DNA of 64,000 bases from Siphonodentalium dalli (taxonomy: Eukaryota > Mollusca > Scaphopoda > Gadilida > Siphonodentaliidae): assembly GCA_032622095.1 (NCBI GenBank), contig CP136063.1, forward strand, positions 28,212,987 through 28,276,986. Direction: 5' to 3'. Below are positions 9,481 to 42,695 of the stretch, in pieces. The first letter of the stretch is position 1, and every line of letters starts with the position of its first letter. The translations under genes and the position numbers were made by a program. Under the pieces are notes generated by a model, which had not been told where the DNA came from, searched no databases, and was given only the letters and a program-made list of their open reading frames with translations.

Positions 9481-9641
9481 TATCTATTTACCTATAAAGA
9501 GTTGTGAACCAAGCCAAATAATTGCAAATTGCCTCATACCTTGCAATCCTTCCTTCCTTCCTTCATTTCTCCCCCGGGACCGCCTGCGTCCATGTTCAAG
9601 AATTCCAAGAAGCGTCTAGCTCACGACACCATCTCGGGAAT

Positions 9642-9888
9642 GTACCACTCCCCAGGTTCTTATACACTAAGTTGGAACTCTCAAAAAACATGGTGATGAC
9701 ATTTATTAACAAAAGTATATACAGGTGAACAGCAAGGCAGCCACAGGAGAATAATATACAATATCTTCTTGTGAATACGTTCAGAACAAGAGTGAAGTCC
9801 AGTGTTTGGCTCTGTCTGGTATATATGGGCTGACAGGAAAACGTCCTGAACTCCAGATGTCGTGATTTGATTGGAACACGTTTGCGCC
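9642..9888. repeat. Dispersed repeat R250, third copy
   Basis: Closely similar to 5368-5616 (same GTACCACTCC start and GAACACGT..GCGCC end). It abuts the left edge of the Helitron array, so its right end marks a breakpoint of that array. Confidence 0.75.
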
Positions 9889-10616
9889 ACGTTTTGGACA
9901 AGCTCAGAGCACCGCTTCTCCCTTCCCAATCATCAAAATCACCGCAAACGCCACTTCGGGGGTTAAGGCATCAACGATCTTTATATTGACCATATTCTGA
10001 TGTTTAAGGATTAACGCTCTTTATTGCAATGGACGTGGCTAAACTACTGACCACATGCATCCGAAATACGGATGCGCGACGAAATGCAATTATCTCGATT
10101 AAAAAGGCAGAATTGATCTAAGCATCATTTGTTTACAATTCAACGCAACACTATCGCTCGAAATATTCAGCAGAGAGATTTCACGACGGGATTAATTGAC
10201 TGTCCGCTCTTTTCGGGGAGACGGGTACCATGAATTAACTCATTGAAAAACAAACAATGCGTTGTCTGTCGTTCCTAGGAAGGGGGAATTTCATTGGGTC
10301 AATTCGGGGACTAATCTAGCAACGGGGATGTTTAGGACGGGTTCCATGAATTATCTCATTGAAAAACAAACAATGCGTTGACTGTCGTTCCCAGGAAGGG
10401 GGGATTTCATCGGGTCAATTTTTCCGCCAGAAAAAAAAAATTCATTTCAAAAATTAATTAAAACAATTTAAAATTTAAAAAAATTAAAAATAATTATTTA
10501 AATTTAAAAAAACATTAATATTACAAAATTCAAAAAAAATAAATAAATAAAAACAAAATAATTAAAAAAATGTCATGTTTCTGACCAACCACGCCAGTGG
10601 CGGGCTAACCTGCTAG
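9889..10616 (+). mobile_element. Helitron-like monomer 0 of the array, 5' part missing
   Basis: Begins inside the common 3' module (TTTTGGACAAGCTCAGAGC) and runs through an AT-rich tract to the 3' end CGCCAGTGGCGGGCTAACCTG followed by CTAG (10613-10616). It contains a local tandem duplication: ACTCATTGAAAAACAAACAATGCG near 10238 and a near copy at about 10349, followed each time by GTC(G)TTCC(T/C)AGGAAGGGGG. The 5' end and the 33-bp minisatellite are absent. No Rep/helicase ORF is present, so the element is non-autonomous. Other copies of the 3' module are near 10779, 29107, 31670, 34125 and 34432. Confidence 0.7.
10591..10616 (+). other. Helitron 3' end: hairpin plus CTAG (junction 1)
   Basis: CGCC-AGT-GGCG can pair, and nine to ten bases later CTAG is followed at once by the TC of the next monomer. 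This is the standard Helitron termination signal. Confidence 0.7.
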
Positions 10617-11539
10617 TCTCCTATATATTTTGAGACTTCCGTATATATGTATATATATATGTGTGTATATATATATATGTGGGTACTTTATAGAATCGAA
10701 AACGAATGGTCGGATCGAGGTCAAACTTCGTATATAATGGTAAAAACCCACGGGAATCGTCCACGTCGTATTTTGGACAAGCTCAGAGCACCGCTTCTCC
10801 CTTCCCAATCATCAAAATCACCGCAAACGACACTTCGGGGTTAATGCATCAACGATCTTCATATTGACCGTATTTGGAGTCGTTAACCGACAAACGCTCT
10901 TTATTGCCATTTTCAATCATACCTCTTTTAGGGACAGGTACTGCGTGTTGTGTGAAAAAAAAAATGTGTGTAGTGTGATTCTTATGTCTGTCGTTCCTAG
11001 GCACGGGGGAAATTTTCATCGGGTCACTTTTCCGCCGATGTACCTTAAATCATACCTATTTTAGGGACTGGTACTGCGTGTTTAGTTATTCTTATGTCTT
11101 CTTCACCGTAATCGGGTAAAATAAGGTCTAATCGGGTAAAATATTGAAAAATTAAATAAAAAAAATTAAAAAATCCAGTAAATTAAAAATGCACGGGTAA
11201 AATATTGAAAAACCAAAAATTAAATTAAAAAATTAATCAAACAAATTAATTCAAAAAGCCAGTAAATTAAATATTATTGAAAAAAAAATATTTAAAAATG
11301 TAATGTTTCTGAGTGTAATCGGGTAAAATATTGAAAAACAAAAAATTAAATTCTAAAATTAATCAAAAAAATTTATTAAAAAATCCAGTAAATTAAAAAT
11401 GCACAATTAACTCATGTTATAAAAAAAAAATTAATATTAACTATTAACTCATTGAAAACAAAAATTTAAAAATTAATTAAAAAAATATAAAATTGTCATG
11501 TTTCTGACGAACGCCGTTAGTGGCGGGCTAACCTGCTAG
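10617..11539 (+). mobile_element. Helitron-like monomer 1, satellite-free, 923 bp
   Basis: Starts TCTCCTATATATTTTGAG directly after the CTAG of the previous monomer and ends CTAG at 11536-11539. The 5' module has a diverged TCGAAAACG..GGTCGGATCGAGG block, the counterpart of the TCGAAAACGGCCGAGCCG block of later monomers. The 3' module (AAGCTCAGAGCACCGCTTC) and a long poly-A/T-rich tail follow. It contains no 33-bp units, so it shows the element before or without satellite expansion. No protein is encoded. Confidence 0.75.
11512..11539 (+). other. Helitron 3' end: hairpin plus CTAG (junction 2)
   Basis: CGCCGTTAGTGGCGGGC, a weakened stem, then TAACCTG and CTAG, joined to TCTATTATATATTTTGG. 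Confidence 0.7.
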
Positions 11540-13552
11540 TCTATTATATATTTTGGAAGATCTGTCTGTGTGTGTGTGTCTGTATGTCTGTAATCGATGG
11601 ACTCGAAAACGGCCGAGCCGATTTCGATGAAACTTGGTATGAGGGGGTATTTTCGGCCGGGGAGTGACATAGACCTATTAATTTGCCCGTGCGACGTGAC
11701 CTTGAAATATAGTTATGGGGTTTATGTTTCCTATATGGCACAGAGTTATGGGGTTTATGTTTCCTATGTCACACATAGTTATGGGGTTTATGTTTCCTAT
11801 ATGGCACAGAGTTATGGGGATTATGTTTCCTATGTCACACAGAGTTATGGGGTTTATGTTTCCTATGTCACACAGAGTTATGGGGTTTATGTTTCCTATG
11901 GCACACATAGTTATGGGGTTTATGTTTCCTATGGCACACATAGTTATGGGGTTTATGTTACCTATGGCACACAGAGTTATGGGGTTTATGTTTCCTATGG
12001 CACACATAGTTATGGGGTTTATGTTTCCTATGGCACACATAGTTATGGGGTTTATGTTACCTATGGCACACAGAGTAATGGGGTTTATGTTTCCTATGGC
12101 ACACAGAGAAATGGGGTTTATGTTTCATATGGCACACAGAGTTATGGGGTTTATGTTTCCTATGGCACACATAGTTATGGGGTTTATGTTTCCTATGGCA
12201 CACATAGTTATGGGGTTTATGTTTCCTATGGCACACAGAGTAATGGGGTTTATGTTTCCTATGGCATACAGAGTTATGGGGTTTATGTTTCCTATGGCAC
12301 ACATAGTTATGGGGTTTATGTTTCATATGGCACACATAGTTATGGGTTTATGTTTCCTATGGCACACAGAGTAATGGGGTTTATGTTTCCTATGGCACAC
12401 AGAGTTATGTGGTTTATGTTTCCTATGGCACACAGAGTTATGGGGTTTATGTTTCCTATGGCACACAGAGTTATGGGGTTTATGTTTTCTGTCACACAGA
12501 GTTATGGGGTTTATGTTTCCTATGGCACACATAGTTATGGGGTTTATGTTTCCTTTGGCACACATAGTTATGGGGTTTATGTTTCCTATGGCACACAGAG
12601 TAATGGGGTTTATGTTTCCCATGACACACAGAGTAATGGGGTTTATGTTTCCTATGGCACACAGAGTTATGGGGTTTATGTTTCCCATGACACACAGAGT
12701 AATGGGGTTTATGTTTCCTATGGCACACAGAGTAATGGGGTTTATGTTTCCTATGTCACACAGAGTAATGGGGTTTATGTTTCCCATGACACACAGAGTA
12801 ATGGGGTTTATGTTTCCTATGTCACACAGAGTAATGGGGTTTATGTTTCCTATGTCACACAGAGTTATGGGGTTTCTATGGCACACAAGGTTATGGTGTT
12901 TATGTTTCCTATATGTCACACAAAGTTGTGGGGTTTATGTTTCCTATGGCACACAAAGTTATGGGGTTTATGTTTCCTATGGCACACAGAGTAATGGGGT
13001 TTATGTTTCCTATGGCACACAGAGTAATGGGGTTTATGTTTCCTATGGCACACAGAGTAATGGGGTTTATGTTTCCTATGACACACAGAGTAATGGGGTT
13101 TATGTTTCATATGACACACAGAGTAATGGGGTTTATGTTTCATATGTCACACAGAGTTATGGGTTTTATGTTTCCTATGGCACACAGAGTAATGGGGTTT
13201 ATGTTTCCTATGGCACACAGAGTAATGGGGTTTATGTTTCATATGGCACACAGAGTAATGGGGTTTATGTTTCATATGACACACAGAGTAATGGGGTTTA
13301 TGTTTCCTATGTCACACAGAGTAATGGGGTTTATGTTTCATATGACACACAGAGTTATGGGGTTTATGTTTCATATGTCACACAGAGTAATGGGGTTTAT
13401 GTTTCATATGACACACAGAGTAATGGGGTTTATGTTTCCTATGTCACACAGAGTAATGGGGTTTATGTTTCCCATGACACACAGAGTAATGGGGTTTATG
13501 TTTCCTATGTCACACATAGTTATGGGGTTTATGTTTTCTGTCACACAGAGTT

Positions 13553-15962
13553 ATGGTGTTTATGTTTCCTATGGCACACAGAGTTATGGGGTTTCTATGG
13601 CACACAAGGTTATGGTGTTTATGTTTCCTATATGTCACACAAAGTTGTGGGGTTTATGTTTCCTATGGCACACAGAGATATGGGGTTTATGTTTCCTATG
13701 GCACACAGAGTTATGGGGTTTATGTTTCATATGGCACACATAGTTATGGGGTTTATGTTTCCTATGGCACACAGAGTAATGGGATTTATGTTTCCCATGA
13801 CACACAGAGTAATGGGGTTTATGTTTCCTATGTCACACATAGTTATGGGGTTTATGTATTCTGTCACACAGACTTATGGTGTTTATGTTTCCTATGGCAC
13901 ACAGAGTTATGGGGTTTCTATGGCACACAAGGTTATGGTGTTTATGTTTCCTATATGTCACACAAAGTTGTGGGGTTTATGTTTCCTATGGCACACAGAG
14001 TTATGGGGTTTATGTTTCCTATGGCACACATAGTTATGGGGTTTATGTTTCCTATGGCACACAGAGATATGGTGTTTATGTTTCCTATGGCACACATAGT
14101 TATGGTGTTTATGTTTCCTATGGCACACAGAGTTATGGGGTTTATGTTTTCTGTCACACAGAGTTATGGGGTTTATGTTTCCTATGGCACACATAGTTAT
14201 GGGGTTTATGTTTCCTATGGCACACATAGTTATGGGGTTTATGTTTCCTATGGCACACAGAGTAATGGGGTTTATGTTTCCCATGACACACAGAGTAATG
14301 GGGTTTATGTTTCCTATGGCACACAGAGTTATGGGGTTTATGTTTCCCATGACACACAGAGTAATGGGGTTTATGTTTCCTATGGCACACAGAGTAATGG
14401 GGTTTATGTTTCCTATGTCACACAGAGTAATGGGGTTTATGTTTCATATGGCACACAGAGTAATGGGGTTTATGTTTCATATGACACACAGAGTAATGGG
14501 GTTTATGTTTCCTATGTCACACAGAGTAATGGGGTTTATGTTTCATATGACACACAGAGTTATGGGGTTTATGTTTCATATGTCACACAGAGTAATGGGG
14601 TTTATGTTTCATATGACACACAGAGTAATGGGGTTTATGTTTCCTATGTCACACAGAGTAATGGGGTTTATGTTTCCCATGACACACAGAGTAATGGGGT
14701 TTATGTTTCCTATGTCACACATAGTTATGGGGTTTATGTTTTCTGTCACACAGAGTTATGGTGTTTATGTTTCCTATGGCACACAGAGTTATGGGGTTTC
14801 TATGGCACACAAGGTTATGGTGTTTATGTTTCCTATATGTCACACAAAGTTGTGGGGTTTATGTTTCCTATGGCACACAGAGATATGGGGTTTATGTTTC
14901 CTATGGCACACAGAGTTATGGGGTTTATGTTTCATATGGCACACATAGTTATGGGGTTTATGTTTCCTATGGCACACAGAGTAATGGGATTTATGTTTCC
15001 CATGACACACAGAGTAATGGGGTTTATGTTTCCTATGTCACACATAGTTATGGGGTTTATGTATTCTGTCACACAGACTTATGGTGTTTATGTTTCCTAT
15101 GGCACACAGAGTTATGGGGTTTCTATGGCACACAAGGTTATGGTGTTTATGTTTCCTATATGTCACACAAAGTTGTGGGGTTTATGTTTCCTATGGCACA
15201 CAGAGTTATGGGGTTTATGTTTCCTATGGCACACATAGTTATGGGGTTTATGTTTCCTATGGCACACAGAGATATGGTGTTTATGTTTCCTATGGCACAC
15301 ATAGTTATGGTGTTTATGTTTCCTATGGCACACAGAGTTATGGGGTTTATGTTTTCTGTCACACAGAGTTATGGGGTTTATGTTTCCTATGGCACACATA
15401 GTTATGGGGTTTATGTTTCCTATGGCACACATAGTTATGGGGTTTATGTTTCCTATGGCACACAGAGTAATGGGGTTTATGTTTCCCATGACACACAGAG
15501 TAATGGGGTTTATGTTTCCTATGGCACACAGAGTTATGGGGTTTATGTTTCCCATGACACACAGAGTAATGGGGTTTATGTTTCCTATGGCACACAGAGT
15601 AATGGGGTTTATGTTTCCTATGTCACACAGAGTAATGGGGTTTATGTTTCCCATGACACACAGAGTAATGGGGTTTATGTTTCCTATGTCACACAGAGTA
15701 ATGGGGTTTATGTTTCCTATGTCACACAGAGTTATGGGGTTTCTATGGCACACAAGGTTATGGTGTTTATGTTTCCTATATGTCACACAAAGTTGTGGGG
15801 TTTATGTTTCCTATGGCACACAGAGTAATGGGGTTTATGTTTCCTATGGCACACAGAGTAATGGGGTTTATGTTTCCTATGGCACACAGAGTAATGGGGT
15901 TTATGTTTCCTATGACACACAGAGTAATGGGGTTTATGTTTCATATGACACACAGAGTAATG
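13553..15962 (+). repeat. Higher-order repeat inside array 1, about 1,205-bp period
   Basis: The marker run GTTATGGGGTTTCTATGGCAC, then CACACAAAGTTGTGGGG, recurs at a fixed offset: blocks beginning 13553 and 13876 reappear at 14758 and 15081, both shifted by 1,205 bp, with the same order of variant units for about 0.9 kb. The right part then diverges. This shows duplication of blocks of tens of units, beyond single-unit slippage. Confidence 0.8.
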
Positions 15963-16771
15963 GGGTTTATGTTTCATATGTCACACAGAGTTATGGGTTT
16001 TATGTTTCCTATGGCACACAGAGTAATGGGGTTTATGTTTCCTATGGCACACAGAGTAATGGGGTTTATGTTTCATATGGCACACAGAGTAATGGGGTTT
16101 ATGTTTCATATGACACACAGAGTAATGGGGTTTATGTTTCCTATGTCACACAGAGTAATGGGGTTTATGTTTCATATGACACACAGAGTAATGGGGTTTA
16201 TGTTTCATATGTCACACAGAGTTATGGGGTTTATGTTTCCTATGGCACAGAGTAATGGGGTTTATGTTTCATATGTCACACAGAGTAATGGGGTTTATGT
16301 TTCATATGACACACAGAGTAATGGGGTTTATGTTTCCTATGTCACACAGAGTAATGGGGTTTATGTTTCCCATGACACACAGAGTAATGGGGTTTATGTT
16401 TCCTATGTCACACATAGTTATGGGGTTTATGTTTTCTGTCACACATAGTTATGGTGTTTATGTTTCCTATGGCACACAGAGTTATGGGGTTTCTATGGCA
16501 CACAAGGTTATGGTGTTTATGTTTCCTATGGCACACATAGTTATGGGGTTTATGTTTCCTATGGCACACAGAGTTATGGGGTTTATGTTTCCTATGGCAC
16601 ACAGAGTTATGGGGTTTATGTTTCATATGGCACACATAGTTATGGGGTTTATGTTTCCTATGGCACACAGAGTAATGGGATTTATGTTTCCCATGACACA
16701 CAGAGTAATGAGGTTTATGTTTCCTATGTCACACATAGTTATGGGGTTTATGTTTTCTGTCACACAGACTT

Positions 16772-19700
16772 ATGGTGTTTATGTTTCCTATGGCACACAG
16801 AGTTATGGGGTTTCTATGGCACACAAGGTTATGGTGTTTATGTTTCCTATATGTCACACAAAGTTGTGGGGTTTATGTTTCCTATGGCACACAGAGTTAT
16901 GGGGTTTATGTTTCCTATGGCACACATAGTTATGGGGTTTATGTTTCCTATGGCACACAGAGATATGGTGTTTATGTTTCCTATGGCACACATAGTTATG
17001 GTGTTTATGTTTCCTATGACACACAGAGTTATGGTGTTTATGTTTCCTATGTCACACAGAGTTATGGGGTGTATGTTTCCTATGGCACACAGAGTTATGC
17101 GGTTTATGTTTCCTATGGCACACATAGTTATGGGGTTTATGTTTCCTATGGCACACATAGTTATGGGGTTTATGTTTCCTATGGCACACAGAGTAATGGG
17201 GTTTATGTTTCCTATGGCATACAGAGTTATGGGGTTTATGTTTTCTATGGCACACATAGTTATGGGGTTTATGTTTCATATAACACACATATTTATGGGG
17301 TTTATGTTTTCTGTCACACAGAGTTATGGGGTTTATGTTTCATATGGCACACATAGTTATGGGGTTTATGTTTCCTATGGCACACATATTTATGGGGTTT
17401 ATGTTTTCTGTCACACAGAGTAATGGGGTTTATGTTTCCTATGGCACACAGAGTTATGGGATTTATGTTTCCTATGGCACACAGAGTAATGGGGTTTATG
17501 TTTCCTATGGCACACATAGTAATGTGGTTTATGTTTCCTATGGCACACATAGTAATGTGGTTTATGTTTCCTATTGCACACAGAGTTATGGGGTTTATGT
17601 TTCCTATGGCACACAGAGTAATGGGGTTTATGTTTCCTATGGCACACATAGTAATGTGGTTTATGTTTCCTATTGCACACAGAGTTATGTGGTTTATGTT
17701 TCCTATGGCACACAGAGTAATGGGGTTTATGTTTCCTATGGCATACAGAGTTATGGGATTTATGTTTCATATAACACACAGAGTTATGGGGTTTATGTTC
17801 CATATGGCACACATAGTTATGGGGTTTATGTTTCCTATGGCACACAGAGTAATGGGGTTTATGTTTCCTATGGCATACAGAGTTATGGGGTTTATGTTTC
17901 ATATAACACACAGAGTTATGGGGTTTATGTTTCCTATGGCACACAGAGTAATGGGGTTTATGTTTCCTATGTCACACAGAGTAATGGGGTTTATGTTTCC
18001 TATGGCATACAGAGTTATGGGGTTTATGTTTTCTATGGCACACATAGTTATGGGGTTTATGTTTCCTATGGCACACAGAGTAATGGGGTTTATGTTTCCT
18101 ATGGCATACAGAGTTATGGGGTTTATGTTTTCTATGGCACACATAGTTATGGGGTTTATGTTTCATATAACACACAGAGTTATGGGGTTTATGTTTCCTA
18201 TGGCACACAGAGTAATGGGGTTTATGTTTCCTATGGCACACAGAGTAATGGGGTTTATGTTTCATATGGCACACAGAGTAATGGGGTTTATGTTTCATAT
18301 GACACACAGAGTAATGGGGTTTATGTTTCCTATGTCACACAGAGTAATGGGGTTTATGTTTCATATGACACACAGAGTAATGGGGTTTATGTTTCATATG
18401 TCACACAGAGTTATGGGGTTTATGTTTCCTATGGCACAGAGTAATGGGGTTTATGTTTCATATGTCACACAGAGTAATGGGGTTTATGTTTCATATGACA
18501 CACAGAGTAATGGGGTTTATGTTTCCTATGTCACACAGAGTAATGGGGTTTATGTTTCCCATGACACACAGAGTAATGGGGTTTATGTTTCCTATGTCAC
18601 ACATAGTTATGGGGTTTATGTTTTCTGTCACACAGAGTTATGGTGTTTATGTTTCCTATGGCACACAGAGTTATGGGGTTTCTATGGCACACAAGGTTAT
18701 GGTGTTTATGTTTCCTATATGTCACACAAAGTTGTGGGGTTTATGTTTCCTATGGCACACAGAGTTATGGGGTTTATGTTTCCTATGGCACACAGAGTTA
18801 TGGGGTTTATGTTTCATATGGCACACATAGTTATGGGGTTTATGTTTCCTATGGCACACAGAGTAATGGGATTTATGTTTCCCATGACACACAGAGTAAT
18901 GAGGTTTATGTTTCCTATGTCACACATAGTTATGGGGTTTATGTTTTCTGTCACACAGACTTATGGTGTTTATGTTTCCTATGGCACACAGAGTTATGGG
19001 GTTTCTATGGCACACAAGGTTATGGTGTTTATGTTTCCTATATGTCACACAAAGTTGTGGGGTTTATGTTTCCTATGGCACACAGAGTTATGGGGTTTAT
19101 GTTTCCTATGGCACACATAGTTATGGGGTTTATGTTTCCTATGGCACACAGAGATATGGTGTTTATGTTTCCTATGGCACACATAGTTATGGTGTTTATG
19201 TTTCCTATGACACACAGAGTTATGGTGTTTATGTTTCCTATGTCACACAGAGTTATGGGGTGTATGTTTCCTATGGCACACAGAGTTATGCGGTTTATGT
19301 TTCCTATGGCACACATAGTTATGGGGTTTATGTTTCCTATGGCACACATAGTTATGGGGTTTATGTTTCCTATGGCACACAGAGTAATGGGGTTTATGTT
19401 TCCTATGGCATACAGAGTTATGGGGTTTATGTTTTCTATGGCACACATAGTTATGGGGTTTATGTTTCATATAACACACATATTTATGGGGTTTATGTTT
19501 TCTGTCACACAGAGTTATGGGGTTTATGTTTCATATGGCACACATAGTTATGGGGTTTATGTTTCCTATGGCACACATATTTATGGGGTTTATGTTTTCT
19601 GTCACACAGAGTAATGGGGTTTATGTTTCCTATGGCACACAGAGTTATGGGATTTATGTTTCCTATGGCACACAGAGTAATGGGGTTTATGTTTCCTATG

Positions 19701-21140
19701 GCACACATAGTAATGTGGTTTATGTTTCCTATGGCACACATAGTAATGTGGTTTATGTTTCCTATTGCACACAGAGTTATGGGGTTTATGTTTCCTATGG
19801 CACACAGAGTAATGGGGTTTATGTTTCCTATGGCACACATAGTAATGTGGTTTATGTTTCCTATTGCACACAGAGTTATGTGGTTTATGTTTCCTATGGC
19901 ACACAGAGTAATGGGGTTTATGTTTCCTATGGCATACAGAGTTATGGGATTTATGTTTCATATAACACACAGAGTTATGGGGTTTATGTTCCATATGGCA
20001 CACATAGTTATGGGGTTTATGTTTCCTATGGCACACAGAGTAATGGGGTTTATGTTTCCTATGGCATACAGAGTTATGGGGTTTATGTTTCATATAACAC
20101 ACAGAGTAATGGGATTTATGTTTCCTATGTCACACAGAGTTATGGGGTTTATGTTTCCTATGGCACACATAGTTATGGGGTTTATGTTTCCTATGGCACA
20201 CAGAGTAATGGGGTTTATGTTTCCTATGGCATACAGAGTTATGGGGTTTATGTTTTCTATGGCACACATAGTTATGGGGTTTATGTTTCATATAACACAC
20301 AGAGTTATGGGGTTTATGTTTCCTATGGCACACAGAGTAATGGGGTTTATGTTTCCTATGGCACACAGAGTAATGGGGTTTATGTTTCCTATGGCATACA
20401 GAGTTATGGGGTTTATGTTTTCTATGGCACACATAGTTATGGGGTTTATGTTTCATATAACACACAGAGTTATGGGGTTTATGTTTCCTATGGCACACAG
20501 AGTAATGGGGTTTATGTTTCCCATGACACACAGAGTTATGGGGTTTATGTTTCCTATGGCACACAGAGTAATGGGGTTTATGTTTCCTATGGCACACAGA
20601 GTTATGTGGTTTATGTTTCCTATGGCACACATAGTAATGGGGTTTATGTTTCCTATGGCACACATAGTTATGGGGTTTATGTTTGCTATGGCACACAGAG
20701 TAATGGGGTTTATGTTTCCTATGGCACACAGAGTTATGTGGTTTATGTTTCCTATGGCACACATAGTTATGGGGTTTATGTTTCCTATGGCACACAGAGT
20801 AATGGGGTTTATGTTTCCTATGGCACACAGAGTTATGTGGTTTATGTTTCCTATGGCACACATAGTAATGTGGTTTATGTTTCCTATTGCACACAGAGTT
20901 ATGGGGTTTATGTTTCCTATGGCACACAGAGTAATGGGGTTTATGTTTCCTATGGCATACAGAGTTATGGGGTTTATGTTTCATATAACACACAGAGTTA
21001 TGGGGTTTATGTTCCATATGGCACACATAGTTATGGGGTTTATGTTTCCTATGGCACACAGAGTAATGGGGTTTATGTTTCCTATGACATACAGAGTTAT
21101 GGGGTTTATGTTTCATATAACACACAGAGTAATGGGGTTT
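16772..21140 (+). repeat. Higher-order repeats inside array 1, about 2,191-bp and 1,023-bp periods
   Basis: The variant order of 16772-17945 reappears at 18963-20102, shifted by 2,191 bp, including rare marks such as GCGGTTTATG, ACACATATTTATGG and CCTATTGCACAC. A nested 1,023-bp shift links blocks ending near 20102 and 21125. The block at 16772 is found a third time at 25230, so a copy shift of about 6.27 kb (18963 to 25230) also exists. Confidence 0.8.
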
Positions 21141-26600: not shown

Positions 26601-29105
26601 AATGGGGTTTATGTTTCCTATGGCACACAGAGTTATGTGGTTTATGTTTCCTATGGCAAACATAGTTATGGGGTTTATGTTTCCTATGGCACACAGAGTA
26701 ATGGGGTTTATGTTTCCTATGGCACACAGAGTTATGTGGTTTATGTTTCCTATGGCACACATAGTAATGTGGTTTATGTTTCCTATTGCACACAGAGTTA
26801 TGGGGTTTATGTTTCCTATGGCACACAGAGTAATGGGGTCTATGTTTCCTATGGCATACAGAGTTATGGGGTTTATGTTTCATATAACACACAGAGTTAT
26901 GGGGTTTATGTTCCATATGGCACACATAGTTATGGGGTTTATGTTTCCTATGGCACACAGAGTAATGGGGTTTATGTTTCCTATGGCATACAGAGTTATG
27001 GGGTTTATGTTTCATATAACACACAGAGTAATGGGGTTTATGTTTCCTATGTCACACAGAGTTATGGGGTTTATGTTTCCTATGGCACACATAGTTATGG
27101 GGTTTATGTTTCCTATGGCACACAGAGTAATGGGGTTTATGTTTCCTATGGCATACAGAGTTATGGGGTTTATGTTTTCTATGGCACACATAGTTATGGG
27201 GTTTATGTTTCATATAACACACAGAGTTATGGGGTTTATGTTTCCTATGGCACACAGAGTAATGGGGTTTATGTTTCCTATGGCACACAGAGTAATGGGG
27301 TTTATGTTTCCTATGGCATACAGAGTTATGGGGTTTATGTTTTCTATGGCACACATAGTTATGGGGTTTATGTTTCATATAACAAACAGAGTTATGGGGT
27401 TTATGTTTCCTATGGCACACAGAGTAATGGGGTTTATGTTTCCCATGACACACAGAGTTATGGGGTTTATGTTTCCTATGGCACACAGAGTAATGGGGTT
27501 TATGTTTACTATGGCACACAGAGTTATGTGGTTTATGTTTCCTATGGCACACATAGTAATGGGGTTTATGTTTCCTATGGCACACATAGTTATGGGGTTT
27601 ATGTTTCCTATGGCACACAGAGTAATGGGGTTTATGTTTCCTATGGCACACAGAGTTATGTGGTTTATGTTTCCTATGGCACACATAGTTATGGGGTTTA
27701 TGTTTCCTATGGCACACAGAGTAATGGGGTTTATGTGTCCTATGGCACACAGAGTTATGTGGTTTATGTTTCCTATGGCACACAGAGTAATGGGGTTTAT
27801 GTTTCCTATGGCACAGAGTAATGGGGTTTATGTTTCCTATGTCACACAGAGTAATGGGGTTAATGTTTCCTATAACACACAGAGTTATGGGGTTTATGTT
27901 TCCTATGGCACACAGAGTTATGGGGTTTATGTTTCCTATGGCACACAGAGTAATGGGGTTAATGTTTCCTATGTCACACAGAGTAATGGGGTTTATGTTT
28001 CCTATGGCACACAGAGTTATGGTGTTTATGTTTCCTATGGCACACAGAGTTATGGTGTTTATGTTTCCTATGTCACACAGAGTAATGGGGTTTTTGTTTC
28101 CTATGGCACACAGAGTAATGGGGTTTATGTTTCCTATGGCACACATAGTAATGGGGTTTATGTTTCCTATGGCACAGAGTAATGGGGTTTATGTTTCCTA
28201 TGGCACACATAGTAATGGGGTTTATGTTTCCCATGTCACACAGAGTTATGGGGTTTATGTTTCCTATAACACACAGAGTTATGGGGTTTATGTTTCCTAT
28301 GGCACACAGAGTTATGGGGTTTATGTTTCCTATGGCACACAGAGTTATGGGGTTTATGTTTCCTATAACACACAGAGTTATGGGGTTTATGTTTCCTATA
28401 ACACACAGAGTAATGGGGTTTATGTTTCCTATGGCACACATAGTTATGGGGTTTATGTTTCCTATGTCACACAGAGTAATGGGGTTTATGTTTCCTATGG
28501 CACAGAGTAATGGGGTTTATGTTTCCCATGGCACACAGAGTAATGGGGTTTATGTTTCCTATGGCACACAGAGTAATGGGGTTTATGTTTCATATGACAC
28601 ACAGAGTAATGGGGTTTATGTTTCCTATTACACACATAGTTATGGTGTTTCTGTTTCCTATGGCACACAGAGTAATGGGGTTTATGTTTCCCATGACACA
28701 CATAGTAATGGGGTTTATGTTTCCCATGGCACACATAGTAATGGGGTTTATGTTTCCTATGGCACACAGAGTAATGGGGTTTATGTTTCCTATGGCACAC
28801 AGAGTAATGGGGTTTATGTTTCCAATGGCACACAGAGTAATGGGGTTTATGTTTCCCATGGCACACAGAGTAATGGGGTTTATGTTTCCTATGTCACACA
28901 TAGTTTCCTATGGCACACAGAGTAATGGGGTGTATGTTTCCTATGGCACACAGAGTAATGGGGTTTATGTTTCCTATGTCACACAGAGTAATGGGGTTTA
29001 TGTTTCCTATAACACACATAGTTATGGAGTTTATGTTTCCTATGTCACACAAAGTTATGGGGTTTATGTTTTCTGTCACACAGAGTTATGGTGTTTATGT
29101 TTCCT

Positions 29106-29385
29106 CAAGCTCAGAGCACCGCTTCTCCCTTCCCAATCGTCAAAATCACCACAAACGACACTTCGGGGGTTAAGGCATCAACGATCTTTATATTAAATTA
29201 AAAAATTAATTCTAAAATTAATTCAAAAATCCAGTAAATTAAAAATGCACAATTAACTCATGTTATAAACAAAAAATTAATATTAACTATTAACTCATTG
29301 AATACAAAAATTTAAAAATTAATTAAAAAAATTTAAAATTGTCATGTTTCTGACGAACGCCGCCAGTGGCGGGCTAACCTGCTAG
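29106..29385 (+). other. 3' module and AT-rich tail of monomer 2
   Basis: Starts CAAGCTCAGAGCACCGC right after the last 33-bp unit and keeps only the first part of the 3' module (to ACGATCTTTATATT) before the AT-rich tract. Compared with 31669-31896 it lacks the GACCGTATTTGGAGTCG portion, so it is internally deleted. It ends with hairpin CCGCC-AGT-GGCGG and CTAG. Confidence 0.7.
29357..29385 (+). other. Helitron 3' end: hairpin plus CTAG (junction 3)
   Basis: Perfect CCGCC-AGT-GGCGG stem, GCTAACCTG spacer, CTAG at 29382-29385. The next monomer starts ACTATTATA rather than TCTATTATA. Confidence 0.7.
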
Positions 29386-29549
29386 ACTATTATATATTTT
29401 GGAAGATCTGTCTGTGTGTGTGTGTGTCTGTAATTGATGGACTCGAAAACGGCCGAGCCGATTTCGATGAAACTTGGTATGTGGGGTATTTTCGGCCGGG
29501 GGGTGGCATAAACCTATTAATTTGCCCGTGCGACGTGACCTTGAAATAT

Positions 29550-31668
29550 AGTTATGGGGTTTATGTTTCCTATATGGCACAGAGTTATGGGGTTTATGTT
29601 TCCTATGGCACACATAGTAATGGGGTTTATGTTTCCTATGACACACAGAGTAATGGGGGTTATGTTTCCTATGTCACACAGAGTAATGGGGTTTATGTTT
29701 CCTATGTCACACAGAGTAATGGGGTTTATGTTTCCTATGGCACACAGAGTTATGATGTTTATGTTTCCAATGGCACACAGAGTAATGGGGTTAATGTTTC
29801 CTATGTCACACAGAGTAATGGGGTTAATGTTTCCTATGGCACAGAGAGTAATGGGGTTTATGTTTCCTATGGCACACAGAGTAATGGGGTTTCTATGGCA
29901 CACAGAGTAATGGGGTTTATGTTTCCTATGGCACACAGAGTTATGGGGTTTATGTTACCTATGGCACACAGAGTTATGGGGTTTATGTTTCCTATGGCAC
30001 ACAGAGTAATGGGGTTTATGTTTCCTATGTCACACAGAGTTATGGGGTTTATGTTACCTATGGCACACATAGTAATGGGGTGTATGTTTCCTATGGCACA
30101 CAGAGTAATGGGGTTTATGTTTCCTATGACACACAGAGTAATGGGGTTAATGTTTCCTATGGCACACAGAATTATGGGGTTTATGTTTCCTGTGGCACAC
30201 AGAGTAATGGGGTTTATGTTTCCTATGACACAGAGAGTAATGGGGTTAATGTTTCCTATGGCACACAGAATTATGGGGTTTATGTTTCCTATGGCACACA
30301 GAGTAATGGGGTTTATGTTTCCTATGGCACACAGAGTAATGGGGTGTATGTTTCCTATGTCACACAGAGTTATGGGGTTTATGTTACCTATGGCACACAG
30401 AGTAATGGGGTGTATGTTTCCTATGTCACACTGAGTTATGGGGTTTATGTTTCCTATGGCACACAGAGTAATGGGGTTTATGTTTCCTATGGCACACAGA
30501 GTAATGGGGTTTATGTTTCCTATGGCACACAGAGTTATGGGGTTTATGTTTCCTATGTCACACAGAGTTATGGGGTTAATGTTTCCTATGGCACACAGAA
30601 TTATGGGGTTTATGTTTCCTATGGCACACAGAGTAATGGGGTGTATGTTTCCTATGGCACACAGAGTAATGGGGTTTATGTTTCCTATGTCACACAGAGT
30701 AATGGGGTTAATGTTTCCTATGTCACACATAGTTATGGTGTTTATGTTTCCTATAACACACATAGTTATGGGGTTTATGTTTCCTATGCCACACAGAGTA
30801 ATGGGGTTTATGTTTCCTATGTCACACATAGTTATGGGGTTTATGTTTCCTATGGCACACAGAGTAATGGGGTTTATGTTTCCTATGGCACACAGAGTAA
30901 TGGGGTTTATGTTTCCTATGGCACACAGAGTAATGGAGTTTATGTTTCCTATGGCACACAGAGTAATGGGGTGTATGTTTCCTATGGCACACATAGTTAT
31001 GGTGTTTCTGTTTCCTATGGGACACAGATTAATGGTGTTTATGTTTCCCATGACACACAGAGTAATGGGGTTTATGTTTCCTATGGAACACAGAGTAATG
31101 GGGTTTATGTTTCATATGACACACAGAGTAATGGGGTTTATGTTTCCTATGTCACACAGAGTAATGGGGTTTATGTTTCCTATGGCACACAGAGTAATGG
31201 GGTTTATGTTTCCTATGGCACAGAGTAATGGGGTTTGTTTCCTATGGAACACATAGTAATGGGGTTTATGTTTCCTATGGCACAGAGTAATGGGGTTTAT
31301 GTTTCCTATGTCACACATAGTTATGGGGTTTATGTTTCCTATGTCACACATAGTTATGGGGTTTATGTTTCCTATGGCACACAGAGTAATGGTGTTTATG
31401 TTTCCCATGACACACAGAGTAATGGGGTTTATGTTTCCTATGGCACACAGAATAATGGGGTTTATGTTTCATATGACACACAGTGTAATGGGGTTTATGT
31501 TTCCTATGTCACACAAAGTTATGGGGTTTATGTTTCCTATGGCACACAGAGTTATGGGGTTTATGTTTCCTATGGCACACAAGGTTATGGTGTTTATGTT
31601 TCCTATGTCACACAAAGTTATGGGGTTTATTTTTTCTGTCACACAGAGTTATGGTGTTTATGTTTCCT
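29550..31668 (+). repeat. 33-bp minisatellite array 2, about 64 units
   Basis: Same unit and same 5' flank (GTGACCTTGAAATATAGTTATGG) as array 1 and array 4. It is rich in variants not common in array 1, such as GGGGTTAATGTTTCC, AGAATTATGG and GGGGTGTATG. It ends with TTTTCTGTCACACAGAGTTATGG and the GTTTCCTCAAGCTCAG junction seen at the end of array 1. Confidence 0.93.
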
Positions 31669-31896
31669 CAAGCTCAGAGCACCGCTTCTCCCTTCCCAAT
31701 CATCAAAATCACCGCAAACGACACTTCGGGGGTTAAGGCATCAACGATCTTTATATTGACCGTATTTGGAGTCGTTAACCGACAAACGCTCTTTATTGCC
31801 ATCGACGTTGCTAAACGGTTAACCACGCGTACGAAACTACGGACGCAAAACGCGAAATGCATTTATCTCGATTAAAAAGGCAGAATTATAGAATCG
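31669..31896 (+). other. 3' module copy lying between arrays 2 and 3
   Basis: A near full-length 3' module: AAGCTCAGAGCACCGCTTC, ACTTCGGGGGTTAAGG, GACCGTATTTGGAGTCG, CTCTTTATTGCCATCGACG, then CTCGATTAAAAAGGCAGAA. At 31893-31897 the sequence ATAGAATCGA passes straight into AGTTATGGGG, whereas the matching copy at 34341 continues into AAAACGAATGG. The minisatellite therefore begins exactly where the second 5'-like block would. Confidence 0.7.
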
Positions 31897-34122
31897 AGTT
31901 ATGGGGTTTATGTTTCCTATGGCACACAGAGTAATGGGGTTTATGTTTCCTATGTCACACATAGTTATGGGGTTTATGTTACCTATGGCACATATAGTAA
32001 TGGGGTGTATGTTTCCTATGGCACACAGAGTAATGGGGTTTATGTTTCCTATGACACACAGAGTAATGGGGTTTATGTTTCCTATGGCATACAGAGTTAT
32101 GGGGTTTATGTTTCCTATGGCACACATAGTAATGGGGTTTATGTTTCCTATGGCATACAGAGTTATGGGGTTTATGTTTCCTATGTCACAGAGTAATGGG
32201 GTTTATGTTTCCTATGGAACACATAGTAATGGGGTTTATGTTTCCTATGTCACACATAGTTATGGGGTTTATGTTTCCTATGGCACACATAGTAATGGGG
32301 TTTATGTTTCCTATGTCACACATAGTTATGGGGTTTATGTTTCCTATGGCACACATAGTAATGGGGTTTAAGTTTCCTATGGCATACAGAGTTATGGGGT
32401 TTATGTTTCCTATGTCACACAGAGTTATGGGGTTTATGTTTCCTATGACACACAGAGAAATGGGGTTTATGTTTCCTATGACACATAGTAATGGGGTTTA
32501 TGTTTCCTATGGCACACAGAGTAATGGGGTTTATGTTTCCTATGACACAGAGTAATGGGGTTTATGTTTCCTATGGAACACATAGTAATGGGGTTTATGT
32601 TTCCTATGGCACACAGAGTAATGGGGTTTATGTTTCCTATGACACAGAGTAATGGGGTTTATGTTTCCTATGTCACACAGAGTTATGGGGTTTATGTTTC
32701 ATATGACACACAGAGTTATGTGGTTTATGTTTCCTATGTCACACAGAGTTATGTGGTTTATGTTTCCTATGGCACACAGAGTAATGGGGTTTATGTTTCC
32801 TATGTCACACAGAGTAATGGGGTTTATGTTTCCTATGGCACAGACTAATGGGGTTTATGTTTCCTATGGAACACATAGTAATGGGGTTTATGTTTCCTAT
32901 GGCACAGAGTAATGGGGTTTATGTTTCCTATGGCACACAGAGTTATGTGGTTTATGTTTCCTATGGCACACATAGTTATGGGGTTTATGTTTCCTATGTC
33001 ACACAGAGTTATGGGGTTTATGTTTCCTATGGCACAGAGTAATGGGGTTTATGTTTCCTATGGAACACATAGTAATGGGGTTTATGTTTCCTATGTCACA
33101 CATAGTTATGGGGTTTATGTTTCCTATGGCACACATAGTAATGGGGTTTATGTTTCCTATGTCACACAGAGTTATGGGGTTTATGTTTCCTATGACACAC
33201 AGTGTAATGGGATTTATGTTTCCTATGGAACACATAGTAATGGGGTTTATGTTTCCTATGGCACACATAGTTATGGGGTTTATGTTTCCTATGACACACA
33301 TAGTTATGGGGTTTATGTTTCCTATGTCACACAGAGTTATGGGGTTTATGTTTCCTATGGCACACAGAGTAATGGGGTTTATGTTTCCTATGGCACACAT
33401 AGTAATGGGGTTTATGTTTCCTATGGCACACAGAGTAATGGGGTTTATGTTTCCTATGGCACACAGAGTAATGGGGTTTATGTTTCCTATGTCACACATA
33501 GTTATGGGGTTTATGTTTCCTATGGCACAGAGTAATGGGGTTTATGTTTCCTATGGCACACAGAGTAATGGGGTTTATGTTTCCTATGGCACAGAGTAAT
33601 GGGGTTTATGTTTCCTATGGAACACATAGTAATGGGGTTTATGTTTCCTATGTTACACATAGTTATGGGGTTTATGTTTCCTATGGCACACAGAGTAATG
33701 GGGTTTATGTTTCCCATGACACACAGAGTAATGGGGTTTATGTTTCCTATGGCACACAGAGTAATGGGGTTTATGTTTCATATGACACAGAGTAATGGGG
33801 TTTATGTTTCCTATGTCACACAAAGTTATGGGGTTTATGTTTTCTGTCACACAGAGTTATGGTGTTTATGTTTCCTATGGCACACAGAGTTATGGGGTTT
33901 CTATGGCACACAAGGTTATGGTGTTTATGTTTCCTATGTCACACAAAGTTATGGTGTTTATGTTTTCTGTCACACAGAGTTATGGTGTTTATGTTTCCTA
34001 TGGCACACAGAGTTATGGGGTTTCTATGGCACACAAGGTTATGGTGTTTATGTTTCCTATGTCACACAAGGTTATGGTGTTTATGTTTTCTGTCACACAG
34101 AGTTATGGTGTTTATGTTTCCA
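31897..34122 (+). repeat. 33-bp minisatellite array 3, about 67 units
   Basis: Same unit as the other arrays. It has many 31-bp units lacking one CA (GGCACAGAGTAATGG), each of which shifts the reading frame and exposes a TAA. The 3' end carries a duplicated TTTCTATGGCACACAAGG block and stops at GTTTCCACAAGCTCAG. Confidence 0.93.
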
Positions 34123-35128
34123 CAAGCTCAGAGCACCGCTTCTCCCTTCCCAATCATCAAAATCACCGCAAACGACACTTCGGGGGTTAAGGCATCAACG
34201 ATCTTTATATTGACCGTATTTGGAGTCGTTAACCGACAAACGCTCTTTATTGCCATCCACGTTGCTAAACGGTTAACCATGCGTACGAAACTACGGACGC
34301 AAAAGGCGAAATGCATTTATCTCGATTAAAAAGGCAGAATTATAGAATCGAAAACGAATGGTCGGATCGAGCTCAAGATTCGTATATAAGGGTAAAAACC
34401 CACGGAGATCGTCCACGTCGTATTTTGGACAAGCTCAGAGCACCGCTTCTCCCTTCATAATCATCAAAATCACCGCAAACGACACTTCGGGGGTTAATGC
34501 ATCAACGATCTTCATATTGACCGTATTTGGAGTCGTTAACCGACAAACGCTCTTTATTGCCATTTTCAATCATACCTCTTTTAGGGACGGGTACTGCGTG
34601 TTGTGTGAAAACAAAAAATGTGTGTTGTGTTATTCTTATGTCTGTCGTTCCTAGGCACAGGGGGAAATTTTCATCGGGTCACTTTTCCGCCGATGTACCT
34701 TAAATCATACCTCTTTTAGGGACGGGTACTGCGTGTTTAGTTATTCTTATGTCTTCTTCACCGTAATCGGGTAAAATAAGGTATAATCGGGTAAAATATT
34801 GAAAAATTAAATTAAAAAATCCAGTAAATTAAAAATGCACGGGTAAAATATTGAAAAACCAAAAATTTAATTAAAAAATTAATCAAAAAAATTAATTCAA
34901 AAAGCCAGTAAATTAAATATTATTGAAAAAAAAAATTAAATTCAAAAATTAATTCTAAAATTAATTCAAAAATCCAGTAAATTAAAAATGCACAATTAAC
35001 TCATGTTATAAACAAAAAATTAATATTAACTATTAACTCATTGAATACAAAAATTTAAAAATTAATTAAAAAAATTTAAAATTGTCATGTTTCTGACGAA
35101 CGCCGCCAGTGGCGGGCTAACCTGCTAG
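34123..35128 (+). other. Double 3' module and tail of monomer 3
   Basis: Two 3' modules follow each other (34125 and 34432), separated by the 5'-like block TCGAAAACGAATGGTCGG and GTAAAAACCCACGG. Then come ATCGGGTAAAATA-type AT-rich sequence and the hairpin/CTAG end. The second half (34341-35128) is nearly the same as satellite-free monomer 1 (10690-11539). Confidence 0.7.
35100..35128 (+). other. Helitron 3' end: hairpin plus CTAG (junction 4)
   Basis: Perfect CCGCC-AGT-GGCGG stem, GCTAACCTG spacer, CTAG at 35125-35128, joined to TCTATTATATATTTTGG with no base between. Confidence 0.72.
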
Positions 35129-38100
35129 TCTATTATATATTTTGGAAGATCTGTCTGTGTGTGTGTGTGTCTGTAATTGATGGACTCGAAAACGGCCGAG
35201 CCGATTTCGATGAAACTTGGTATGTGGGGGTATTTTCGGCCGGGGGGTGGCATAAACCTATTAATTTGCCCGTGCGACGTGACCTTGAAATATAGTTATG
35301 GGGTTTATGTTTCCTATGGCAAACAGAGTAATGGGGTTTATGTTTCCTATGTCACACAGAGTAATGGGGTTTATGTTTCCTATGTCACACAGAATAATGG
35401 GGTTTATGTTTCCTATGGCACACAGAGTTATGGTGTTTATGTTTCCTATGGCACACAGAGTAATGGGGTTTATGTTTCCTATGTCACACAGAGTTATGTG
35501 GTTTATGTTTCCTATGGCACACAGAGTTATGGGGTTTATGTTTCCTATGTCACACAGAGTAATGGGGTTTATGTTTCCTATAACACACAGAGTAATGGTG
35601 TTTATGTTTCCTATGTCACACATAGTTATGGGGTTTATGTTTCCTATGGCAGAGTAATGGGGTTAATGTTTCCTATGGCACACAGAGTAATGGGTTTATG
35701 TTTCCTATGTCACACAGAGTAATGGGGTTTATGTTTCCTATGGCACACATAGTAATGGGGTTTATGTTTCCTATGTCACACAGAGTTATGGGGTTTATGT
35801 TTCCTATGGCACACAGAGTAATGGGGTTTATGTTTCCTATGGCACAGAGTAATGGGGTTTATGTTTCCTATGCCACACATAGTTATGGGGTTTATGTTTC
35901 CTATGGCACACATAGTAATGGGGTTTATGTTTCCTATGGCACACAGAGTAATGGGGTTTATGTTTCCTATGGCACACATAGTAATGGGGTTTATGTTTCC
36001 TATGGCACACAGAGTTATGGGGTTTATGTTTCATATGGCACAGAGTAATGGGGTTTATGTTTCCTATGGCACACAGAGTTATGGGGTTTATGTTTCCTAT
36101 AACACACAGAGTAATGGGGTTTATGTTTCCTATGCCACACATAGTTATGGGGTTTATGTTTCCTATGGCACACATAGTAATGGGGTTTATGTTTCCTATG
36201 GCACACAGAGTAATGGGGTTTATGTTTCATATGGCACAGAGTAATGGGGTTTATGTTTACTATGCCACACAGAGTTATGGGGTTTATGTTTCCTATAACA
36301 CACAGAGTTATGGGGTTTATGTTTCCTATGGCATACAGAGTTATGTGGTTTATGTTTCCTATGGCACACAGAGTAACGGGGTTTATGTTTCCTATGGCAT
36401 ACAGAGTTATGTGGTTTATGTTTCCTATGGCACACAGAGTAACGGGGTTTATGTTTCCTATGTCACACAGAGTTATGTGGTTTATGTTTCCTATGGCACA
36501 CAGAGTAATGTGGTTTATGTTTCCTATGGCACACAGAGTAATGGTGTTTATGTTTCCTATGGCACACAGAGTTATGGGGTTTATGTTTCCTATGGCACAC
36601 AGAATTATGGGGTTTATGTTTCCTATGTCACACAGAGTAATGGGGTTTATGTTTCCTATGGCAGAGTAATGGGGTTAATGTTTCCTATGTCACAGAGTAA
36701 TGGGGTTTATGTTTCCTATGGCACACATAGTAATGGGGTTTATGTTTCCTATGGCACACAGAGTAATGGGGTTTATGTTTCCTATGGCACAGAGTAATGG
36801 GGTTTATGTTTCCTATGTCACAGAGTAATGGGGTTTATGTTTCCTATGGCACAGAGTAATGGGGTTTATGTTTCCTATGTCACACAGAGTTATGGGGTTT
36901 ATGTTTCCTATAACACACAGAGTTATGGGGTTTATGTTTCCTATGTCACACAGAGTAATGGGGTTTATGTTTCCTATAACACACAGAGTTATGGGGTTTA
37001 TGTTTCCTATGTCACACATAGTTATGGGGTTTATGTTTCCTATAACACAGAGTTATGGGGTTTATGTTTCCTATGTCACACAGAGTAATGGGGTTTATGT
37101 TTCCTATGTCACACAGAGTAATGGGGTTTATGTTTCCTATGTCACACAGAGTAATGGGGTTTATGTTTCCTATGGCACACAGAGTAATGGGGTTTATGTT
37201 TCCTATGTCACACAGAGTAATGGGGTTTATGTTTCCTATGGCACACATAGTAATGGGGTTTATGTTTCCTATGTCACACAGAGTTATGGGGTTTATGTTT
37301 CCTATGGCACACAGAGTAATGGGGTTTATGTTTCCTATGGCACAGAGTAATGGGGTTTATGTTTCCTATGCCACACATAGTTATGGGGTTTATGTTTCCT
37401 ATGGCACACATAGTAATGGGGTTTATGTTTCCTATGGCACAGAGTAATGGGGTTTATGTTTCCTATGTCACACAGAGTTATGGGGTTTATGTTTCCTATG
37501 TCACACAGAGTTATGGGGTTTATGTTTTCTGTCACACAGAGTAATGGGGTTTATGTTTCCTATGCCACACATAGTTATGGGGTTTATGTTTTCTGTCCAC
37601 AGAGTTATGGGGTTTATGTTTCCTATAACACACAGAGTTATGGGGTTTATGTTTTCTGTCACACAGAGTAATGGGGTTTATGTTTCCTATGCCACACATA
37701 GTTATGGGGTTTATGTTTCCTATGGCACACAGAGTAATGGGGTTTATGTTTCCTATGCCACACATAGTAATGGGGTTTATGTTTCCTATGGCACACAGAG
37801 TAATGGGGTTTATGTTTCATATGGCACAGAGTAATGGGGTTTATGTTTCCTATGTCACACAGAGTTATGGGGTTTATGTTTCCTATAACACACAGAGTTA
37901 TGGGGTTTATGTTTCCTATGGCACACAGAGTAATGGGGTTTATGTTTCCTATGGCATACAGAGTTATGTGGTTTATGTTTCCTATGGCACACAGAGTAAC
38001 GGGGTTTATGTTTCCTATGTGACACAGAGTTATGTGGTTTATGTTTCCTATGGCACACAGAGTAATGTGGTTTATGTTTCCTATGTCACACAGAGTAATG

Positions 38101-39359
38101 GTGTTTATGTTTCCTATGGCACACAGAGTTATGGGGTTTATGTTTCCTATGGCACACAGAATTATGGGGTTTATGTTTCCTATGTCACACAGAGTAATGG
38201 GCTTTATGTTTCCTATGGCAGAGTAATGGGGTTAATGTTTCCTATGGCACACAGAGTAATGTGGTTTATGTTTCCTATAACACACAGAGTAATGGGGTTT
38301 ATGTTTCCTATGTCACACAGAGTAATGGGGTTTATGTTTCCTATGGCACAGAGTAATGGGGTTTATGTTTCCTATGTCACAAAGAGTTATGGGGTTTATG
38401 TTTCCTATGTCACACATAGTTATGGGGTTTATGTTTCCTATAACACACAGAGTTATGGGGTTTATGTTTCCTATGTCACACAGAGTAATGGGGTTTATGT
38501 TTCCTATGACACACAGAGTAATGGGGTTTATGTTTCCTATGTCACACAGAGTTATGGTGTTTATGTTTCCTATGTCACACATAGTTATGGTGTTTATGTT
38601 TCCTATGTCACACATAGTTATGGGGTTTATGTTTCCTATGTCACACTGAGTAATGGGGTTTGTTTCCTATGTCACACAGAGTAATAGGGTTTATGTTTCC
38701 TATGTCACACATAGTTATGGTGTTTATGTTTCCTATGTCACACATAGTTATGGGGTTTATGTTTCCTATGTCACACTGAGTAATGGGGTTTATGTTTCCT
38801 ATGTCACACATAGTTATGGGGTTTATGTTTCATATGGCACAGAGAGTAATGGGGTTTATGTTTCCTATGTCACACAGAGTAATGGGGTTTATGTTTCCTA
38901 TGTCACACTGAGTAATGGGGTTTATGTTTCCTATGTCACACAGAGTAATGGGGTTTATGTTTCCTATGGCACACATAGTAATGGGGTTTATGTTTCCTAT
39001 GGCACACAGAGTAATGGGGTTTATGTTTCCTATGGCACAGAGTAATGGGGTTTATGTTTCCTATGTCACACATAGTTATGGGGTTTATGTTTCCTATGTC
39101 ACACAGAGTAATGGGGTTTATGTTTCCTATGGCACAGAGTAATGGGATTTATGTTTCCTATGTCACACATAGTTATGGGGTTTATGTTTCCTATGGCACA
39201 CATAGTTATGGGGTTTATGTTTCCTATGTCACACATAGTTATGGGGTTTATGTTTCCTATGGCACACATAGTAATGGGGTTTATGTTTCCTATGGCACAC
39301 AGAGTAATGGGGTTTATGTTTCCTATGGCACACAGAGTAATGGGGTTTATGTTTCATAT
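35129..39359 (+). mobile_element. Helitron-like monomer 4, truncated on the right
   Basis: 5' end TCTATTATATATTTTGG at 35129 directly after CTAG, followed by the usual 5' module and array 4. The array stops at 39359 within a unit (GTTTCATATC), where a different minisatellite and the ZF duplicons begin, so the 3' module and terminal hairpin are missing. Confidence 0.75.
35294..39359 (+). repeat. 33-bp minisatellite array 4, about 123 units
   Basis: Same 5' flank (GACCTTGAAATATAGTTATGG) and unit as arrays 1 and 2. Typical local variants are ACACTGAGTAATGG, CCTATAACACAC, CCTATGCCACAC and units shortened at GGCAGAGTAATGG. Frequent 31-bp units break the frames, so ORFs are shorter than in array 1. 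Confidence 0.93.
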
Positions 39360-39509: not shown

Positions 39510-40502
<993 letters not shown>

Positions 40503-40962: not shown

Positions 40963-41072
40963 CCACTAGGGTTATTTCCCATGAGCTTTGACCAAACTCT
41001 ATGTGCGGAATCCACTGCACACTGTATATAATTTGAGCAAGTGCCTTCCAGTCTTAAAGTCCATAGTGCAAA

Positions 41073-41589: not shown

Positions 41590-42695
<1,106 letters not shown>

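Follow-up and report, generated by a model that had tools for sequence, protein, structure and literature searches.

The Helitron array at positions 9889 to 39359 of the 64,000-nucleotide stretch of Siphonodentalium dalli DNA analyzed here (the window; C3:28212987-28276986) is best explained as a train in which non-autonomous Helitrons from at least two families, R and Q, follow one another, started by insertion at the 5' borders of resident elements and followed by minisatellite-mediated duplication (probability roughly 0.7). The array is of a known kind and of unusual scale. A new Helitron would insert canonically between A and T, the A belonging to the host and the T being the first base of the resident 5' TC, and the product would read A|TC(new)...CTAG|TC(resident), with no host base at the joint. 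Insertion at a resident 5' border makes the upstream element the younger one, and this is the order of insertion that we infer within the window. Later unequal exchange or replication slippage in a 33-bp minisatellite, together with deletions, would have duplicated the joint between an R tail and a Q head and made the Q-head/R-tail chimeras that are seen as monomers 3 and 4. Insertion at 5' borders predicts unrelated neighbors, an outer A and an outer T, unlinked histories of joined P and Q elements (P being a further family, described below), and younger families upstream.

The window contains four exact copies of the tail GGCGGGCTAACCTGCTAG, all on the + strand and ending at 10616, 11539, 29385, and 35128. 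Directly 3' of these tails lie four heads of the general form T/ACT..TATATATTTTG, namely, TCTCCTATATATTTTGA at 10617, TCTATTATATATTTTGG at 11540, ACTATTATATATTTTGG at 29386, and TCTATTATATATTTTGG again at 35129. When up to 3 mismatches were allowed, the tail 17-mer gave 5 matches (the four junction tails and a solitary copy) versus 1.07 expected, a number reached in 0 of 100 shuffles. The preliminary description of this DNA had recognized Helitrons with TC and CTAG ends in head-to-tail order, which the four exact tails and the solitary copy bear out, and its monomers of 0.9, 17.8, and 5.7 kb correspond to closed units of 923, 17,846, and 5,743 bp. The fusions of CTAG to TCTATTATATATTTTGG without a host base at 11539/11540 and 35128/35129 were found as it had reported them, and so was the change of T to A at 29385/29386, where the head starts with AC. 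At 10616/10617, where it had seen a diverged 5' end, CTAG is indeed fused to a head, but that head is one of another family, R, by its body too. The solitary copy, whose ends could have spoken against the proposed borders, begins with TC and ends with CTAG as proposed, and its A|TC...CTAG|T structure fixes the element ends and the target as those of a Helitron.

Comparison with loci of the same genome placed monomers 1 and 2 in the R family (tail ...GTGGCGGGCTAACCTGCTAG) and the heads of monomers 3 to 5 and of the solitary copy in the Q family (head TCTATTATATATTTTGG). The coordinates of all features are collected in Table 1. Monomer 1 has no 5' end, being interrupted at 9888/9889 by another repeat (9631-9888, matching 5357-5616 at 96.6%). 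Monomers 3 and 4 are chimeras as judged from their sequence, in which a Q head and the 33-bp minisatellite are followed by R sequence. The minisatellite of monomer 4 is broken at 31669-31897 by an extra R segment, its R body lacks the first 71 bp (10688-11539 matching 34340-35128 at 89%), and the tail of monomer 3 is a shortened form of that of monomer 4. The 33-bp array of monomer 5 ends at about 39359 against a 50-bp repeat.

Table 1. Helitron monomers, junctions, and associated repeats in the window (window coordinates)
Feature	Start	End	Strand	Description
Monomer 1	9889	10616	+	R-family Helitron, 5'-truncated; 3' part with CTAG
Monomer 2	10617	11539	+	R-family Helitron, 923 bp, both ends; head TCTCCTATATATTTTGA, tail GTGGCGGGCTAACCTGCTAG
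Monomer 3	11540	29385	+	Q-family head (~170 bp), 33-bp minisatellite, short R-family tail
Monomer 4	29386	35128	+	Q-family head (first base A, not T), 33-bp minisatellite, R body and R tail
Monomer 5	35129	39359	+	Q-family head and 33-bp minisatellite; no 3' end
33-bp minisatellite	11711	39359	+	Consensus AGTTATGGGGTTTATGTTTCCTATGGCACACAG; higher-order duplications up to 1,453 bp, 99.4%
Junction 1	10599	10633	+	R tail, R head
Junction 2	11522	11556	+	R tail, Q head; CTAG|TC
Junction 3	29368	29402	+	R tail, Q head; CTAG|AC
Junction 4	35111	35145	+	R tail, Q head; CTAG|TC; duplicate of junction 3
Solitary Q-family Helitron	45787	46386	-	Full-length, 600 bp; A|TC...CTAG|T

The four junctions of the window do not carry equal weight. 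A diagonal scan (98% identity, 200-bp windows) yielded 146 matches, only one of which connects different monomers: 29189-29492 matches 34932-35235 at an offset of 5743 and 99.4-99.5% identity, encompassing junctions 3 and 4. These two are therefore copies of one junction and not separate pieces of evidence. The other 145 matches lie within monomers and extend up to 1,453 bp at 99.4%. TRF counts 843.7 copies of the 33-bp unit along a stretch that includes junctions 3 and 4 as well as the R segments, and the sharing of unit variants between monomers did not decide the order of events. Evidence on junction 1 (R|R) is mixed. Between the tails of monomers 1 and 2, identity is 72% over 204 bp, monomer 1 having no head to compare, and the tail of monomer 1 is nearer to that of another locus, L022 (85% over 149 bp); the body of monomer 1 shares 88.7% identity with that of monomer 2 over 141 bp, against 72.9-82.4% with R copies at other loci. 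Compared with R copies elsewhere, monomers 1 and 2 are thus not especially close to each other in the tail, but they are in the body, and from these identities an old duplication or a concatemer could lie behind this junction. Perhaps two of the joints in the window are primary (one R|R, one R|Q), local duplication having followed.

Other CTAG|TC junctions, for which the 2.23-Gb genome (9 contigs) was searched with exact patterns, proved to be abundant. CTAG|TCTATTATATATTTTGG occurs 7,035 times (0 for the reversed-pattern control), and an A stands before this head at 5,716 places (1 for the control). Among the heads listed at C1:1-39 Mb that lie >20 kb from any other exact head, 43 are joined to CTAG and 43 are preceded by A. 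The combination seen in the window, R tail followed by Q head, is found 578 times. Loci were taken from the places listed first on contig C1 and are not a random sample; 20 joints were read from the first 100 listed there, 19 of which have no other exact joint within 20 kb. A known tail motif stands 5' of the head in 19 of the 20 joints read (16 under a stricter motif). Their usual form is A|P...CTAG|Q...CTAG|T, in which the bodies of P (head TCTCATATATATTTTGA, tail ...ACGTCGGGCTCATCGGCTAG) and Q are unrelated, and longer trains occur as P|P|P|Q (L009 and L021), P|P|Q (L020), and R|P|Q (L022). The base at the left edge of the train is A in 11 of 12 readable loci, with T in L019, and the base at the right edge is T in all 11 loci. 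Among 30 Q copies preceded by A, 22 have a recognizable 3' end, 7 of which abut another head and 15 of which are solitary. Single copies flanked by A and T, which the preliminary description had looked to for support, are thus found outside the window as well: the 15 solitary copies, from loci L029-L058 chosen for an A before TC, are followed by T in 15 of 15 cases.

Joints of the CTAG|TC type have been regarded as marks left by rolling-circle multimers, and it was in this sense that the array had first been interpreted, as a concatemer produced by joined-end circles or read-through. Thirteen of the 20 loci read contain abutting pairs in which both units are bounded, 20 pairs in total, leaving aside a 21st whose units do not abut directly; 13 of these pairs give no alignment at all, 1 (L028) aligns partially, and 6 are of the same family. 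Since most pairs read do not align, the joint alone is no evidence of a circle. Under such a concatemer, the circle of one Helitron (its ends joined as CTAG|TC), or a skipped terminator, would give a multimer that is then inserted, and one circle cannot join different elements. A single-circle origin is hence excluded for junction 2 of the window, where an R tail meets a Q head, and was rejected for the 13 unalignable pairs as well; the primary joints of the window can be explained without a concatemer. The near identity of junctions 3 and 4 would suit a concatemer as well, as would the bodies of monomers 1 and 2 being nearer to each other than to copies elsewhere, although the former pair is one duplicated junction. 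The Helraiser transposon produces circles with exact CTAG|TC junctions, which are active as donors (PMC4778049, PMC5876387), and regular, homogeneous arrays are present in this genome.

Relationships among neighboring units bear on the same question. Of 10 neighboring Q-headed pairs, 8 show higher identity to a copy elsewhere than between the neighbors, with the caveats that for L053 the closer copy is found only in L052, which lies at a distance of 10 kb in the same array, that L014 is unalignable, and that one L031 pair covers 133 bp; at L025 and L052, the neighbor is the closest by identity. Neighboring P elements in L009 are 83.6-86.4% alike, less than their 90-92% identity to copies elsewhere, and those of L020 and L021 pair best with each other in at least one direction. 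Homogeneous arrays are exemplified by the regular one at C1:16.05 Mb (L052/L053), with a period of 917-927 bp and neighbors 97-98% alike; in L003-L006, a two-element unit repeats. The homogeneous arrays could have been made by circles or by unequal exchange, and for arrays such as L052/L053 a concatemer is possible. As the origin of the array in the window, the concatemer is unlikely, though it fares best among the alternatives to insertion at 5' borders.

Circles of mixed composition are a still less probable source. Here RepHel would first link two different Helitrons, 3' end to 5' end, and a P-Q dimer would insert as one; mixed CTAG|TC joints, a left A, a right T, and uncorrelated histories of P and Q would all result, and RepHel joins and recuts such junctions in vitro (PMC5876387). 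Mixed circles predict similar numbers of P|Q and Q|P joints, but 2,502 P|Q and 299 Q|P joints were observed, a skew that is approximate, these being raw counts with a Q tail that covers one Q subfamily; a smaller number of intact P heads may be partly responsible. The first 100 listed P|Q joints fall into 82 clusters, 73 of them single, and 17 of the first 100 listed Q|P joints lie in one cluster. There are 18,544 exact P tails in the genome and 13,449 exact tails belonging to the one Q subfamily. Of the 100 P tails listed first, 29 continue directly into an exact Q head (19 of 76 P tails when one cluster is set aside), as do 16 of the 100 Q tails listed first. We also classified what follows 75 non-focal 3' ends from the loci examined and the window, scoring a flank a few bases from a head as host. 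Q ends are followed by host sequence in 40 cases, by Q in 7, by R in 1, and by P in 0; P ends by P in 5 and by Q, R, and host in 1 each; and R ends by R, P, and Q in 3 each, by other heads in 2, and by host in 5.

Over 11 P|Q loci, one of which (L028) has a chimeric Q, a Mantel test of P against Q distances gave r = -0.165 (p = 0.73), and the absence of correlation means that there is no sign of the pairs having spread as one composite. P measures 376-982 bp and Q 612-2,815 bp over these loci. The mean distance is smaller for P (0.086) than for Q (0.278), which is weak evidence of age because Q there mixes subfamilies. That a P-Q or R-Q composite formed once and spread as a unit by skipping its inner CTAG is very improbable given these unequal lengths and the unsupportive Mantel result, even though the Q-head/R-tail chimeras of the window and the two-element unit of L003-L006 point to local amplification of composites.

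How, then, do different Helitrons come to be fused without a host base between them? The main argument for a concatemer had been that independent insertions would need an A before TC. That argument falls, since insertion between a host A and a resident T yields CTAG|TC directly. Du et al. 2008 (PMC2267711) describe this for a maize pair of different Helitrons fused as CTAG|TC without a host base, which they ascribe to consecutive insertion, either canonical at the A|T of the resident 5' border or non-canonical at the GT of the 3' border. Theirs is a single case; here one head type has 7,035 exact joints, at least three families take part, and the raw counts show an order skew. With cases numbering in the thousands within a single genome, circle models and insertion at 5' borders become testable against each other by order, phylogeny, and empty sites.

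Insertion at 5' borders raises the question of why resident heads should be hit so often. A target profile was built from 43 3' flanks without an immediate head, 9 of which ran into a nearby head and were removed, leaving 34. These solitary flanks begin with T and continue TATATA-rich, 13 of 34 being (TA)n, so that the 3' side of the target resembles the heads of the elements themselves. Scored against the 7,304 A|T sites that the window contains when the array and the solitary copy are excluded, the Q head is among the best 1.2-3.3% and the P head among the best 0.2-5.8%; the scores of three R-type heads are less good, being equaled by 3.9-27% of sites. With all A|T sites equal, 0.5 P|Q joints would be expected by chance, and 16-43 if insertions were confined to sites scoring like the Q head, versus the 2,502 observed. 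AT-rich targeting goes some way toward explaining frequent insertion at heads. Target likeness alone falls 58-159 times below the P|Q count, which clusters inflate, and recognition would accordingly have to go beyond AT-richness. The resident head may thus be favored through resemblance to a target or through recognition as one, and direct recognition of a left end as target would be a bold extension. TE dimers reportedly seed satellites. We consider it an even bet that the resident 5' end is a preferred landing site in this genome: the RepHel machinery would treat the A|TC(n)TATATATTTTG head as a target, about half of the exact Q heads (of those preceded by A or CTAG) carry another Helitron joined seamlessly to their 5' side, younger families would stack upstream, and the trains would seed satellite-like arrays. 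This would be a simple path from a Helitron insertion preference to tandem arrays.

Stacking of Helitrons at resident 5' ends across a genome was not found described in the titles and abstract openings of the open-licence papers listed, and several known systems share parts of it. Tandem Helibat elements of Myotis (Pritham and Feschotte 2007, as represented in citing papers) show perfect head-to-tail CTAG|TC joints, as here; there they were read as tandem repeats, whereas 13 of the 20 pairs here join unalignable elements. Plant centromeric Helitron arrays (Xiong et al. 2016, as summarized in PMC12628747 and PMC5148889) likewise consist of head-to-tail copies, but the copies there are truncated, and many of the arrays combine several 5' ends with just one 3' end, whereas many units here have both ends. 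Double insertion of transposable elements, for which site preference is the main source of dimers (McGurk and Barbash 2018, as summarized in PMC12628747), was described in Drosophila melanogaster; here the elements are Helitrons, and under their A|T rule the joint becomes seamless. Helraiser (PMC4778049, PMC5876387) resembles the present elements in its TC and CTAG ends and its A|T target, has an AT-rich target bias that is strongest on the 3'-end flank, and forms joined-end circles; its new insertions differ in not being clustered around donor sites.

The canonical Helitron ends, 5' TC and 3' CTRR (here CTAG), are present at the junctions of the array except for the AC head at 29386, and the solitary copies in the window and elsewhere agree with insertion between A and T without a target-site duplication. 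As for the short GC hairpin ascribed to the tails, tails 3 and 4 have a 5-bp palindromic stem (a P tail has one of 6 bp), but folding of 7 tails gave z values of -0.04 to -1.54, none convincingly better than shuffles. RepHel families had no match among the 10 window ORFs scanned, as is expected for non-autonomous copies, and a RepHel protein encoded elsewhere would do the work. Across the genome, Helitron_like_N matches were obtained at 151 or more places (150 of 457 candidates scored); those listed all lie outside the window, and many have open frames of at least 1,600 codons. A RepHel locus at C1:13.74 Mb, for which no 5' head was found in the 701 + 395 bp upstream of the open frame, is likely the partner of P, judging from the sequence on its 3' side: a P-type end is present there, its last 33 bp 91-97% like P tails, and it is fused as CTAG|TC to an R-like head. 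Among its other coding sequences, the window encodes C2H2 zinc-finger arrays and a LINE reverse transcriptase.

The left end of monomer 1, the first and 5'-truncated R-family element of the head-to-tail Helitron train, is cut off by another repeat, which lies at two places in the window. The 33-bp minisatellite within the train had no match among the loci fetched from the same genome for comparison, either by motif search (L001 to L058) or by blastn (L009 to L058). Repeats of 50 bp adjoin the Helitron array and lie between some of the 84-bp repeats, for example at 42968-43410.

Features in the window and at one comparison site
Feature	Position	Strand	Description
Repeat that cuts off monomer 1	5241-5616, 9631-9888		95.7-96.6% between copies
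33-bp minisatellite	11711-39359		~844 copies, within the train
84-bp repeats	39541-45227, 54633-54969, 58532-59782		C2H2 zinc fingers where scanned
LINE-type ORFs	49381-52202	-	reverse transcriptase and endonuclease domains
Array of two alternating elements (L003-L006)	C1:1.626-1.630 Mb		spacings of 1,376 and 1,029 bp

Elsewhere in the genome, one ~90-kb cluster at C2:103.71-103.81 Mb holds 17 of the first 100 listed joints in which a family Q tail is fused directly to a family P head, and this cluster is possibly a satellite built from a Q-P unit. A locus coding for RepHel, the Helitron transposition protein, is surrounded by a dense cluster of Helitron joints at C1:13.72-13.79 Mb.
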